Origin: Gemmatimonadales bacterium
GTDB taxonomy: Bacteria > Gemmatimonadota > Gemmatimonadetes > Palauibacterales > Palauibacteraceae
Assembly: GCA_030636765.1 (NCBI GenBank)
Contig: DAOVWI010000004.1
Span: 1 to 39,346, forward strand
Direction of reading: 5' to 3'
DNA length: 39,346 nucleotides
A program made the position numbers and the translations under genes. Within the stretch, counting starts at the first letter, position 1. Each line of letters begins with the position of its first letter. Positions 18,920 through 25,935 of the stretch are shown here, in pieces. The notes beneath the pieces were generated by a model that worked only from the letters and a program-made list of their open reading frames with translations, did not search any database and was not told the DNA's origin.

Positions 18920-18946
18920 GGCGGGCCGGCCGGCCCGCCACTTTTT
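18920..18946 (+). terminator. Intrinsic terminator downstream of the RemB-like gene
   Basis: Perfect 20-bp palindrome ggcgggccggccggcccgcc (18920-18939) followed by acttttt. Confidence 0.75.
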
Positions 18947-18995
18947 GCAGGCGCCCGGGAACGCAGGCGCGACGCGGCTGGTATTCTCCACCACA

Positions 18996-21074
18996 ATGTC
19001 AGTGACGACGGGAGCGCTGCTGCTCCATCTGACCGCGGCCGCCCTCGCGCCCGCCTCGACCCTCTTCCCACAGGACACGCTCGCCGTGACCCGGGGGGCC
19101 GAAGCTGTGTTGTCCCCCGAGCCAGGGACCGCTCCGTCCGAGTGGAACGACGAGCGCGTTCTCCTGATCATCCAAGCGGCGATCGCCGCGCGACGCCATG
19201 CCTTCTCCGACAGCTCGCTGCTCAACTTCGAGGCGGACGCCGAGGGCTACATCTATCTGCTCACCGACATCGAGGGTCAGGAGCGCCTGATCCGGGCCGA
19301 TCAGGTGGCCCTGAGGATCGCCTGGCAGGCACCCGGGAATCTCACCCAGACGATCCTGGGACGCCGCTCCGACCGAAGGCTCCCGTCGAGGATCCGCTAC
19401 CACGTCGATCACCTTGCCGTGACCATCGACAACTTCGGCGACGTCATCCGGGTGGGAGAGGGAGACGAGGTCAGGGGCGTTTTGCACCCGGTCGCTCGCG
19501 CGGCTACACGCTTCTACGAGTACCGTTTGGCGGACTCGACCGAGATCCGCTTCCAGGGAGGCCGCGCTCGCATCTACGAGATCGAAGTGAGGCCGACCCG
19601 CTTCGACCGCTCCGGCATCATCGGGACGCTGTACATCGACCGGGATACATGGGCGGTCGCCCGCATGGCCTTCACCTTCACGCCCACATCCTACGTGGAT
19701 CCCCGCCTGACCGGGTTGGACATCGACATATCCAACGCGCTGTGGGAAGGGCGTTACTGGCTCCCGGTGCTGCAGATCGTCGATGTAAGACGAGCGTCAC
19801 GGTGGCTCAGCTTCCCGATCTCCGCCACGATCCGAACCGAGCACCACATCGGACCATACCGAATCAACGGCAATCTCACCGAGCCCGTGCCGAGGGGCGA
19901 GAAGATCAGCTCGGTCGCGAGGTCCGAGCTGGAGACCTACGACGAGTGGAGACGCGACCTGCTCGACGGCCCGCTGGGCGAGGCCGATACCGCGGCCATC
20001 GACATGGAAGAGATCCGCGCGAAGGCAAGAGAGATCGTGGGACGCCGGGTCGTCCCGACCGGTCGCCTCCGCGTGTGGATCGACGGCGTTTCGAGCCTGG
20101 CCCGCGGGAGGAGGGCCGAAGGGTTCCTGGCGGGAGCGGGCGGCGAGTACGCGCTCCCACGCGGCTCCGTGCGGGCGTGGGTGGGCTACCCGTTCGGTAC
20201 GGACGTGCCGGAGCTGCTGGTCGCCTTCGATCGCGACATCGGCTCGTCGCGACTGCGCGTCGAAGGATACAGCCAGCGCCTCACGGACGTGGGACCGTTT
20301 CAGGCCGCGGCCGGACTCGTCTCCTCCTTCTCGCTAGCCATCAAGGGTGAGGACTTCATGGACCCGTACTTCCGCGACGGCGTGAGGGCCACGCTGTTCT
20401 TCCCCCTGCTCGGCAACACGAGCTCCGTCTCGGCCGGCTGGGAGAACCAGGAGAGCGCGACGCTGGCGACGGGCGTGTCGGACGCGCGGCCGGTCCGGTC
20501 GATTCGAGACGGAGGCCTGGCGAGCGTCACCGTGCTGCTTCGGCCCCAACTCGGCGAGCTGCTCGGGGCCGGCTTGAGCGCGCGTTTCGAGGCGGAGGCG
20601 GGGGTTATCGATGACGGCTACGCTCGGTGGATCTTCGGCGTCGCTCTGGACGGCCAGAAGCCCGGAGCTCCATGGGCCTGGAAGGCCGAGGTCGGTGGTG
20701 CGCTCGCGGCAGGCACGCTTCCGGCGCAGCGGCTCGTGCTCCTCGGGGGTCGGCACACCGTCCCCGGCTACCCGTTTCGTCCCTGGGGCGGCGACCAGGG
20801 GTTCCTCGTGCGGCTCCTCGGCTCGCGGCAGGTGCTGGGCCGGTGGCTGAACGTCCGGGCGTTCGCCACGGCGGGGTGGGTGGGCGTCACCTCGGTCTCG
20901 GCCGAGGCCGCCGAGAGGTTCGGCGCCACGCGGAGCGACGGGCTTCGACCCTCGCTGGGCGTCGGCATCGGCTTCCTCAACGACGCGCTGCGGGTGGACG
21001 TGGGCCGGGGCCTGGACGACGGCGTGTGGGAGTGGATGATCTCGGTGAACCCGGACCTCTGGCCGATGCTGTAG
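18996..21074 (+). CDS. Outer-membrane beta-barrel protein (DUF5686 / BamA-TamA-like)
   Basis: ORF 18945..21074; ATG at 18996 gives a signal peptide. YIDRDTWAVARMAFTFTP...; C-terminal barrel pattern LLGGRHTVPGYPFRPWGGDQGFLVRLLGSR...LGVGIGFLNDALRVDVGRGL. Confidence 0.75.
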   Translation: MSVTTGALLLHLTAAALAPASTLFPQDTLAVTRGAEAVLSPEPGTAPSEWNDERVLLIIQAAIAARRHAFSDSSLLNFEADAEGYIYLLTDIEGQERLIRADQVALRIAWQAPGNLTQTILGRRSDRRLPSRIRYHVDHLAVTIDNFGDVIRVGEGDEVRGVLHPVARAATRFYEYRLADSTEIRFQGGRARIYEIEVRPTRFDRSGIIGTLYIDRDTWAVARMAFTFTPTSYVDPRLTGLDIDISNALWEGRYWLPVLQIVDVRRASRWLSFPISATIRTEHHIGPYRINGNLTEPVPRGEKISSVARSELETYDEWRRDLLDGPLGEADTAAIDMEEIRAKAREIVGRRVVPTGRLRVWIDGVSSLARGRRAEGFLAGAGGEYALPRGSVRAWVGYPFGTDVPELLVAFDRDIGSSRLRVEGYSQRLTDVGPFQAAAGLVSSFSLAIKGEDFMDPYFRDGVRATLFFPLLGNTSSVSAGWENQESATLATGVSDARPVRSIRDGGLASVTVLLRPQLGELLGAGLSARFEAEAGVIDDGYARWIFGVALDGQKPGAPWAWKAEVGGALAAGTLPAQRLVLLGGRHTVPGYPFRPWGGDQGFLVRLLGSRQVLGRWLNVRAFATAGWVGVTSVSAEAAERFGATRSDGLRPSLGVGIGFLNDALRVDVGRGLDDGVWEWMISVNPDLWPML

Positions 21075-21081
21075 GATCGGC

Positions 21082-21110
21082 TTGACGAGCGGCGGCCGCG
21101 ACCCTAGCGT
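21082..21110 (+). promoter_or_regulatory. Candidate sigma-70 promoter for the trp leader
   Basis: TTGACG (21082-21087), 17-nt spacer, TAGCGT (21105-21110), placing the start site at about 21116-21118. Confidence 0.45.
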
Positions 21111-21117
21111 CATTGCG

Positions 21118-21213
21118 ATGCAGAACCCGGTCCTACTTCTCGCCTCGAAAGCGCACACCAGCAGCTGGTGGTGGTGGTACTGCGCGCACGCGGAGGTGGA
21201 CGCTATCGGGTAG
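21118..21213 (+). CDS. trpL: trp operon leader peptide, MQNPVLLLASKAHTSSWWWWYCAHAEVDAIG
   Basis: 31-codon ORF with four consecutive TGG codons (21166-21177), immediately upstream of an intrinsic terminator and trpD. Confidence 0.92.
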   Translation: MQNPVLLLASKAHTSSWWWWYCAHAEVDAIG

Positions 21214-21270
21214 AACGCCTGACCCATGACCCTGCGACCCACCTCCGAGGGGCTGGAGGTGGGTTTTTTT
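21191..21270 (+). terminator. trp attenuator: terminator hairpin with competing antiterminator
   Basis: Terminator stem acccacctcc (21237-21246) / ggaggtgggt (21255-21264) followed by T7. Upstream cggaggtgg (21191-21199) is perfectly complementary to ccacctccg (21239-21247), giving the alternative 2:3 pairing. Confidence 0.92.
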
Positions 21271-21311
21271 GTGCCCTCGCCGGCTCCTCCACGGTCGCGA
21301 TCGGAGCCAAT

Positions 21312-22376
21312 ATGAACGGCATGCCGCGCACGCTGGAACGCCTGACGAACGGTCATGATCTCACAGAGCAGGAGGCCGCCGACGTGCTCCTGGCGCTTAC
21401 CGCCTCAGGGGGCTCGCAGGCCCTATCGGGAGCCGTTCTGGCGGCTCTCGTGTCGAAAGGCGAGACCGCGGAGGAGATCCGCGGATTCGCGGGGGCTATG
21501 CGGCATCGAGCCATACGTGCCGACGTAGCGGACGGGCTGCCGGCGATCGACATCGTGGGCACGGGAGGCGACGGGTCCGGCAGCCTCAACCTCTCCACGG
21601 GCGCCGCACTGCTCACCGCGTCGTGCGGCCAACCGGTCATCAAGCACGGCAATCGATCCGTCTCGAGTCGCTCCGGCAGCGCCGACGTTCTGGAGGCACT
21701 GGGCCTGGCGCTGCCACACGACGAGAGATCGGCGGTCGAATGTCTCGAGCGCACCGGATTCACCTTCCTCTTCGCACCGTATTTTCACCCGGCCATGAGG
21801 GCGATGGTGCCGGTCCGCCAAGCGCTCGGAATCCGCACCGTGTTCAACATCCTGGGCCCTCTGACCAACCCCGCGGAACCGCCCTTCTACCTGATTGGAG
21901 CGTACGACCTGGACGTCGCCGCCCGCATGGCCGAGGCGCTGGCCGGCATGAAGATCGAGCGCGCGTTCGTCGTGCACGGAGCGTGCGGTTGGGACGAGGC
22001 GACACCCTTCGGCCCGTTTGAGCTCTTCGACGTGCGGCCGGGATCCGTTCGGCGGTTGGAGCGCGACCCGGCGGAGCACGGAGTCCCTCGCTGCCGGCCC
22101 TCCGACCTCATCGGCGGGGATCCGTTGGAGAACGCGCTTCGGCTGCGTGCGGCACTCGAGGGCGAGCGAGGGCCGCACCGCGATGCGCTCCAGCTGGGCG
22201 CGGCGCTGGCGCTGGAGATCACCGGAGGCGCCGGCACGCTGGACACCGGGCTGGGGATCGCAGCCGCGGCGATCGACGACGGCTCGGCCGCACAGCTTCT
22301 CGAGCGTCTGAGGACCTTCTCGCCCACCGGGGCGACCGACGTGGCCGAGGTGACCGGGGCGGCCAGGCATGTCTGA
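21312..22376 (+). CDS. trpD: Anthranilate phosphoribosyltransferase
   Basis: DIVGTGGDGSGSLNLSTGAALL, VIKHGNRSVSSRSGSADVLEALG, FNILGPLTNPA. ATG at 21312, after the attenuator. Confidence 0.97.
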   Translation: MNGMPRTLERLTNGHDLTEQEAADVLLALTASGGSQALSGAVLAALVSKGETAEEIRGFAGAMRHRAIRADVADGLPAIDIVGTGGDGSGSLNLSTGAALLTASCGQPVIKHGNRSVSSRSGSADVLEALGLALPHDERSAVECLERTGFTFLFAPYFHPAMRAMVPVRQALGIRTVFNILGPLTNPAEPPFYLIGAYDLDVAARMAEALAGMKIERAFVVHGACGWDEATPFGPFELFDVRPGSVRRLERDPAEHGVPRCRPSDLIGGDPLENALRLRAALEGERGPHRDALQLGAALALEITGGAGTLDTGLGIAAAAIDDGSAAQLLERLRTFSPTGATDVAEVTGAARHV

Positions 22377-23208
22377 CTTCCTCGCCACCATGGCCAGGGA
22401 GAGCCGGTCGCGGGTCTCGGACGCCCGAAGGCGGGAGCCGGAAGGAGCTCTCCACTCCCGGGCGCTGGAGACGCCCCGGCCACCCCGGCTCCTGCTGGAT
22501 GCGGGCTTCGACGTGATCGCAGAGATCAAGCGGCGGGCCCCTTCGGCGGGATCGCTCAGCCCGAGCCCTCGCGCCGGGCTTGCGGCCGAGCGGGCCCGCG
22601 CGTACGCCCGTGGCGGAGCGGCTGCGATCTCCGTACTCACCGAGCCGAGCCGGTTCGGGGGAAGTCTCGCCGACCTCGAGGGGGCGGCGGGCGCCACGGG
22701 CGTGCCGGCCATGCGGAAGGACTTCCTGGTCGACCCGTACCAGCTGCTGGAGGCCCGCGCTGCCGGCGCCGGGGGCGCGCTGCTGATCGTCCGCCTTGTC
22801 GAGGACGCCGTGCTGGTCGAGATGCTGGAGGCGGCGGCCGGGCTAAGGCTTTTCGTCCTTCTCGAGTCGTTTGCCGAGCCGGATCTGGAGCGCATTGGCT
22901 TCCTCCTGCCCCGCGCCAAGGCCCTCGGCCTCGATGTGCTCATCGGCGTCAACGCGCGCGACCTCACGAGCCTGGAGGTCAACCCGACCCGGCTGGCCGA
23001 GCTGGCCGCCTCCCTTCCCTCCGGCATGCCGTGCGTCGCGGAAAGCGGCCTTACAACGCCCGGGGACATCCGTGGCGTGGCCTCCCGCGGCTACCGGTTG
23101 GCGCTCGTCGGAAGCGCGCTCATGCGGTCGGTGGACCCGTCCGGGCTCACGGCCGAACTGGTTGCGGCGGGTCGAGAGGAAGCGCTGAGGTCATGCGCGT
23201 CCGCGTGA
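22369..23208 (+). CDS. trpC: Indole-3-glycerol-phosphate synthase
   Basis: VIAEIKRRAPSAGSLSP, ISVLTEPSRFGGSLADL, MRKDFLVDPYQLLEARAAGA, IGVNARDLTSLEV. Confidence 0.97.
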   Translation: MSDFLATMARESRSRVSDARRREPEGALHSRALETPRPPRLLLDAGFDVIAEIKRRAPSAGSLSPSPRAGLAAERARAYARGGAAAISVLTEPSRFGGSLADLEGAAGATGVPAMRKDFLVDPYQLLEARAAGAGGALLIVRLVEDAVLVEMLEAAAGLRLFVLLESFAEPDLERIGFLLPRAKALGLDVLIGVNARDLTSLEVNPTRLAELAASLPSGMPCVAESGLTTPGDIRGVASRGYRLALVGSALMRSVDPSGLTAELVAAGREEALRSCASA

Positions 23209-23875
23209 AGATCTGCGGGATCACGACGACCGAGGCGGCCGCGGCAGCGTCCGAGGCCGGCGCGGACGCGGTCGGGTACGTGTTCGCCGACTCGCCGCGC
23301 CGCGTGCGGATCGAGCAGGCCCTCGCGCTCTCCGACCGGCTCGGCGCCTTCGTCACGCGCGTGGCGGTCTTCCGGTATCCTGCACCCGACGAGGTAAGGG
23401 CCGTCGTCCGGGCGCTTCGTCCCGAGATGGTGCAGTCGGAGCCGGCGGGCGACCTGGCCGGAACGATGGCCGGCGCGAGCGAGCTCCTCGCGGTGTTCCA
23501 CGACACTCCGACCCTCGGATCGCGGGTCCGGGAGTACGTGGGTCGGTACCTGGAGCGGTGCAACGGTCGGCCGGCCATCCTGCTCGAGGCGCCGGGCCGG
23601 GGCGGGCGCGGCATCCGGCCTAGCTGGGATCGAGCCGCCGTCGTGGCGCGCGACGCACGGCTCGTCCTGGCCGGCGGCCTCACGCCGGAGAACGTGGCCG
23701 ATGCCATTCGCGCGGTCCGGCCGTACGCGGTGGACGTGAGCAGCGGCGTGGAAGGGAGGTCGGGGGTCAAGGACCCGGAGAGGATCGAAGCCTTCATGGC
23801 GGCGGTACGGCGAGCGGAGGCCGAGTTGAACGAAGCTTGGGCGAGCGCCGAGGAGCCCGCCTGCGGAGCATCGAG

Positions 23876-23879
<4 letters not shown>
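23193..23879 (+). CDS. trpF: Phosphoribosylanthranilate isomerase
   Basis: VKICGITTTEAAAAASEAGADAVGYVFADSPRRV, LAGGLTPENVADAI, AVDVSSGVEGRSGVKDPERI. ATG at 23193. Confidence 0.96.
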
Positions 23880-25122
<1,243 letters not shown>

Positions 25123-25126
<4 letters not shown>

Positions 25127-25935
25127 CCGGCCTGGCGGGCGCGGACCGCCTCGCTGAGGCAACCCACGACGCGGGCGCGGACCGCCTCGAGCGGGCGATT
25201 CGACGGGCGACCGACTCCGGACGACCGGCGCTGGCGGCGTTCCTCACGGCGGGCTTTCCCGAACCGAAGGGGTTCGCCGATCTCCTCCGGGCGGTCTCCG
25301 ACGCCGCCGAGATCGTCGAGATCGGCGTGCCGTTCTCCGACCCCATGGCCGACGGCGTGACGATCCAGGAATCGAGCCGCCGCGCGCTCGAGTACGGCGT
25401 CACGCTCGGTTGGATTCTCGAGACCGTCGCTCGTGCGCGGAGCTCGACTCCGGTGGTGCTGATGAGCTACCTGAACCCGCTCCTGGCGCGCGGGCTAGCC
25501 GACTTCGCGCGGCAGGCAGCCGAGGTGGGAGTCGCGGGCCTCATCGTGCCGGACCTGCCGTACGAGGAGTGCGGACCCCTCCGGAGCGCTCTCTCCGGGG
25601 TGGGGGTCGCCCTCGTCCAGCTCGTAACGCCCATCACTCCGCCCGAGCGCCTGCGTCTGCTGTGCACCGCCAGCGACGGCTTCGTGTACGCCGTCACGAC
25701 CGCCGGGACGACCGGCGGCGACACGGACTCTGGACAGACACTGCGGGGCTACCTCGACCGGGTCCAAGCGGCCTCGCCGGTCCCGGTGCTGGCCGGGTTC
25801 GGCATTCGAAGCGCCGGCCAGGTGAGAGAGATCGCGGGGCACACGGACGGGATAATCGTCGGAAGCGCGCTTATCGAAGTCCTGCGCCGCGGAGAGGACC
25901 CCGCCGCCTTCCTCCGCCGGCTGCGCGACGGGTAG
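25123..25935 (+). CDS. trpA: Tryptophan synthase alpha chain
   Basis: LAAFLTAGFPEPKGF, EIGVPFSDPMADGVTIQESSRRALEYG, GLIVPDLPYEE, GFGIRSAGQVREI. Confidence 0.97.

Follow-up and report, generated by a model that had tools for sequence, protein, structure and literature searches.

A conserved leader with the anatomy of a ribosome-mediated trp attenuator in Gemmatimonadota

The trpDCFBA operon of a Gemmatimonadota MAG is very probably controlled by a ribosome-mediated transcription attenuator located upstream of trpD. The leader was analysed within a stretch of 39,346 nucleotides, referred to here as the window, from an assembly of 2.3 Mb that is 83% complete. In silico, it displays a defined anatomy that is conserved in relatives, a fixed spacing between its parts and two mutually exclusive pairings.

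Leader anatomy and the predicted switch

The leader peptide ORF, trpL, occupies positions 21118-21213 of the plus strand, as do all features described below. It begins at the ATG at 21118, ends at the TAG at 21211-21213 and encodes the 31-codon peptide MQNPVLLLASKAHTSSWWWWYCAHAEVDAIG*. Four tandem Trp codons (TGG) at 21166-21177, with similar runs in relatives, constitute the predicted stall site. Segment 2, CGGAGGTGG at 21191-21199, is followed by the stop codon 11 nt further on. Its exact complement, CCACCTCCG at 21239-21247, lies in segment 3, the 5' arm of an intrinsic terminator (21237-21247). This arm pairs with segment 4, the 3' arm (21254-21264), and a T7 run (21264-21270) is located directly at the 3' end of the stem. 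The segments were assigned from folds and pair counts, and segment 4 and the T7 run also from a terminator scan, which found two terminator-like sites in the leader region where 0.3 would be expected. An initial annotation had described the ORF with its four TGG codons, the GC-rich hairpin ending in T7 ahead of trpD and the perfect pairing between segment 2 and the 5' arm. All of its coordinates are right, the two segments are exact complements, and the stem (21237-21264) is followed by trpD, which starts at the ATG at 21312.

The genes downstream encode Trp biosynthesis in the order trpDCFBA. They comprise trpD (anthranilate phosphoribosyltransferase, 21312-22376; TIGR01245, E 2.8e-103, 345.7 bits against a cut-off of 199), trpC (indole-3-glycerol phosphate synthase, 22369-23208; E 6.8e-55), trpF (phosphoribosylanthranilate isomerase, 23193-23879; E 3.7e-44), trpB (tryptophan synthase beta, 23837-25126; TIGR00263, E 7.5e-161), whose true start may be further in, and trpA (tryptophan synthase alpha, 25123-25935; TIGR00262, E 3.1e-60). 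A mechanical ORF list starts trpD at GTG 21168, inside the Trp codon run, which is an artefact. Annotation pipelines may hide the attenuator through such a mis-start (21168-22376).

We infer the transcription start, translation, stalling and Trp-dependence of the leader as follows. Transcription would start at the leader ATG or a few bases from it, and a ribosome would load directly on the leaderless mRNA. With charged tRNA-Trp in short supply, the ribosome would stall at the four TGG codons, leaving segment 2, which begins about 14 nt downstream, just outside the ribosome and free to pair with segment 3 once the latter is made; the terminator would be blocked and trpDCFBA transcribed. When Trp is plentiful, a ribosome at the stop codon would cover segment 2, the 3:4 terminator would form and transcription would end at the T7 run. 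The Yanofsky-type logic proposed in the initial annotation is supported in silico by the leader, the operon, the terminator and the conserved, exclusive 2:3 and 3:4 pairings.

A predicted promoter at the leader start codon

The initial annotation did not mention a promoter that would start the leader mRNA at its own ATG. We found a predicted promoter, TTGACG-N17-TAGCGT, at 21082-21110, with the -10 hexamer ending 7 nt before the ATG. Related trp leaders carry the same arrangement: TTGAC(G/C), 17 or 18 bases, a TAnnnT-like hexamer and 6-9 nt to the start codon. The pattern is matched by 0-9 of 2000 dinucleotide shuffles of each leader's upstream region. Just seven sites in the 2.3 Mb assembly fit TTGAC-N17-19-TAnnnT-N5-8-ATG, the window leader included, and a control pattern gave two. 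No Shine-Dalgarno-like sequence was found upstream of the leaders in the type-A set, described below. Initiation about 7 nt downstream of the -10 hexamer would place the 5' end of the transcript at the leader ATG or within about 3 nt of it. The promoter spacing thus predicts that the type-A trp leaders are leaderless.

Conservation of the leader and its pairings

The trpD and trpE genes of relatives were collected blind to their upstream regions, and short ORFs containing Trp runs were then sought in those regions. Homologous leaders were found upstream of trpE or trpD in G001 (two), G002, G006, G009, G014, G018, G022, G110/L006, L005/G307 and G366. The G002 leader is near-identical to that of the window; those of G001 and of other genera are divergent homologues. 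A covariance model built from 11 leaders and searched over 397 genomes of the class recovered two further leaders (G012 and G366) and found the L005 genome again as G307, all with E <1e-9. The G012 leader contains WWWW, and its contig stops just past the terminator, leaving the downstream gene out of view; the G366 leader contains WRW and precedes trpE. Altogether, this type (type A) comprises 13 leaders from 12 genomes, counting that of the window. The Trp codons are kept in all of them, as WWW or WWWW in 12 and WRW in one, so the TGG run, tandem or near-tandem, is conserved as the initial annotation required of an attenuator. The N-terminal parts of the peptides differ.

The Trp run, segment 2 and the terminator are retained in relatives with TrpD only 61-68% identical. 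In G001, of the same genus and with 68% TrpD identity, MSNSVLNWAARADTWWWYSIHAEVDPTG is encoded upstream of trpD, and a second leader, MKQTESHPVSHAYAIDSWWWWHYARAEVDTAD, precedes a divergent trpEG operon that continues into a DAHP-synthase-like gene. One intergenic region (L060, 8183-8626 of contig C144) separates trpEG and the DAHP-synthase-like gene from trpDCFBA, and each of these divergent operons has its own WWW or WWWW leader and terminator. Upstream of trpE, leaders with a Trp run are present in G018, G009, G022, G014, G006, G110/L006 and L005; in these genomes the operon is trpEGDCFB(A) where the contig extends far enough.

Most other trpE genes scanned in the class (lineages with 46-52% identity) have no Trp-run leader within 500 nt upstream. 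One exception is G047, with a WW leader. Two others belong to family f2, where WWAWWW (L106 in G041) and WWGWWW (L108 in G037) leaders precede trpE with a long, unrelated terminator. These two f2 genomes have a different TrpD lineage, and the start of their leaders is predicted to be near-leaderless.

Several candidates were discarded. A second DNA match in the window's genome (contig C203) lies inside an aldehyde dehydrogenase-like gene and is attributed to chance. A loose DNA pattern, which matched 368 of the 397 genomes and gave similar counts for its controls, was set aside. Most weak RNA-model matches (E ~1e-4 to 1e-2; L148-L150 and L152-L154) are ordinary terminators that lack a Trp ORF.

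The gene upstream of the leader (18945-21074) runs in the same direction; the intrinsic terminator between it and trpD could simply end its transcription constitutively, lying before trpD by chance next to a chance ORF. This is highly improbable: the predicted promoter sits between that gene and the leader, and type-A leaders with different upstream neighbours still carry the Trp-run ORF, the terminator and the same segment 2 ahead of trpE or trpD. Across the 11-leader alignment segment 2 keeps eight invariant bases, GGAGGTGG, while nearby codons vary and the position of the stop codon shifts. Segment 2 lies 14 nt downstream of the last Trp codon in ten of these leaders and 17 nt downstream in L005; in G006 the spacing is counted from the last Trp codon of WWWRW. 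A distance of 14 nt puts segment 2 just past the front edge of a ribosome stalled at the last Trp codon.

The same terminator could in principle serve another Trp sensor, and its architecture alone is compatible with a T-box, a TRAP-like protein or a riboswitch. We consider this the least probable of the alternatives, since what is conserved, Trp codons plus a segment held at constant spacing from them, would be needed only by a translating ribosome. Neither Trp_leader (RF00513) nor any other Rfam covariance model reaches its gathering score in the window, and none of note appears over the leader at E up to 5; we do not claim membership of a sequence family.

The proposed ribosome-dependent switch was examined by folding 13 leaders (ten of type A, G047 and two from Gammaproteobacteria). 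In the nascent fold, which spans the RNA starting 10 nt downstream of the Trp run and extending through segment 3, the 2:3 pairing has a mean probability of 0.86-1.00 in 13 of 13 leaders and of 1.00 in the window. Folds that begin 10 nt downstream of the stop codon give the terminator in every leader. The energy of the window's 2:3 duplex is matched by none of 1000 dinucleotide shuffles. At equilibrium the finished terminator beats 2:3 in most folds, which means that the switch must be kinetic. Attenuators of the ribosome-mediated type are generally kinetic switches.

The unconstrained fold of the whole leader has ordinary stability (z -1.0), so that conservation bears the argument. Among the 11 aligned leaders, 98% of the 2:3 cells and 96.7% of the 3:4 cells are paired, and sliding the partners by 1-3 columns reduces the pairing to 38-60%. 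The initial annotation had looked to orthologous leaders for conserved pairing, Trp codons and stem covariation. The pairing and the Trp codons are kept; covariation is weak, with few compensatory changes. Its excess over column shuffles is small (equally high values arise in 29-89 of 500 shuffles for 3:4 and in at least 55 of 500 for 2:3) because segment 2 and most other columns hardly vary. G110 has a C-G to U-A exchange in 3:4, which segment 2 accommodates as a G-U pair. The main evidence is therefore conservation and spacing, not covariation. A 1:2 protector pairing does not exceed shuffles in the window's genus (g1) and is suggestive in g5, g2 and f10 genomes, where 25-93 of 1000 shuffles are as good.

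Operon history, his leaders and known systems

The closest named relative by TrpD is 'Gemmatimonadetes bacterium isolate KW1-S21_123', with 93% identity. This agrees with the Gemmatimonadota lineage of the window and with the earlier view that it lies outside the enterobacteria. Despite the intact trpDCFBA, trpE was not found in the 83% complete assembly, which may reflect a gap. The only trpE-like gene there (L063, 2222-3601) resembles, by inspection, a MenF-type isochorismate synthase and not TrpE. In two genomes of the same genus (G004 and G005, 90% complete, the latter a single contig) no trpD or trpE was found, and a hisG was not found in any of the genus's six genomes. These absences possibly indicate auxotrophies.

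In a TrpD tree built by a quick method, the window-type Gemmatimonadota sequences and those of four gammaproteobacterial MAGs (L007-L010) form one starred clade, apart from the usual Gemmatimonadota TrpD. The AU test rejects placing all TrpD of Gemmatimonadota in a single clade (p 2e-36). The simplest reading is that the operon moved with its attenuator between Gemmatimonadota and Gammaproteobacteria, in either direction; this reading rests on MAGs, for which binning errors are possible. On this view, an attenuator may accompany its operon from one phylum to another and be duplicated if that operon splits.

A weak match of the RNA model, L151 in G044, is a His leader (MIVCLAHAHHYHIPGHLPESEASG*) directly before hisG. 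Scanning the regions upstream of hisG revealed His-rich short ORFs in families f1, f3, f4, f5, f6, f7 and f9, for example MSTIGFVLHHHHAHHHGPDGSRRRRVHGL in G043 and MNTRTHTPTHHHHGHREAVV in G046. They occur at L163, L164, L166, L168, L169, L170, L174, L175, L176, L184 and L187, with runs that include HHHH, HHHHAHHH and HAHHYHIPGH. Four of them (L164, L168, L169 and L187) have the same predicted leaderless promoter spacing as the trp leaders. Judged from sequence, the His-rich ORFs before hisG in many Gemmatimonadota families are probably his attenuators. A broader reading, to which we give an even chance, is that ribosome-mediated attenuation with leaderless leader peptides serves trp and his operons throughout the phylum, and that the trp form was transferred with its operon between Gemmatimonadota and Gammaproteobacteria and was later doubled for the split halves of the pathway.

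Both the mechanism and its leaderless form are already known. What is added is their spread in the phylum, the doubled attenuator of G001 and the lineage shared with Gammaproteobacteria. A literature search returned no paper joining Gemmatimonadota with leader-peptide attenuation; most subscription journals were outside this search, so priority is unproven. The leaders extend textbook attenuation logic, its anatomy well conserved, to a little-studied phylum far from E. coli. They also provide a natural series: segment 2 stays constant, as does its spacing of 14 nt from the Trp codons, and the peptide drifts.

The window leader shares with Escherichia coli trpL the tandem Trp codons in a leader peptide, the 2:3 antiterminator, the 3:4 terminator and the position at the head of a trp operon. 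E. coli trpL belongs to a different phylum, is SD-led and precedes trpE, whereas the window leader is predicted to be leaderless, precedes trpD and has no evident counterpart of the conserved 1:2 protector hairpin.

An established case of a leaderless trpL is that of Sinorhizobium meliloti (PMC7298713). There, the transcript begins with the leader ATG, trp attenuation depends on the ribosome and the trp operons are split (PMC7298713). The leaders described here are predicted to share the leaderless start and the ribosome dependence, and split trp operons occur here too. Only trpE(G) is attenuated in S. meliloti, with a peptide of 14 aa (PMC7298713). In the window the predicted target is trpDCFBA, and in G001 each half of the pathway has its own attenuator. 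The leaderless layout, predicted here, gives rise in S. meliloti to a small mRNA and a trans-acting peptide, rnTrpL and peTrpL (PMC7298713). An additional action in trans of the short leaderless transcript or peptide is improbable for the window, as the peptide's N-terminal region differs from genus to genus.

Streptomyces lividans trpL1, also established as leaderless (PMC8079986), encodes a WWW peptide (MFAHSTRNWWWTAHPAAH) and shares the TTGACn and TAnnnT promoter elements and the terminator (PMC8079986). It is actinobacterial and precedes a monocistronic trpE (PMC8079986). The leaders of the uncultured Gammaproteobacteria (L007-L010) are likewise short ORFs with a Trp run, predicted to be near-leaderless, with a terminator before trpE. 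L007 and L009 carry GGAGTGGGC as segment 2, a likeness to the window type. Their peptides are mostly shorter than that of the window, segment 2 lies nearer to the stop codon or past it, and they precede trpE, whereas the window leader precedes trpD.
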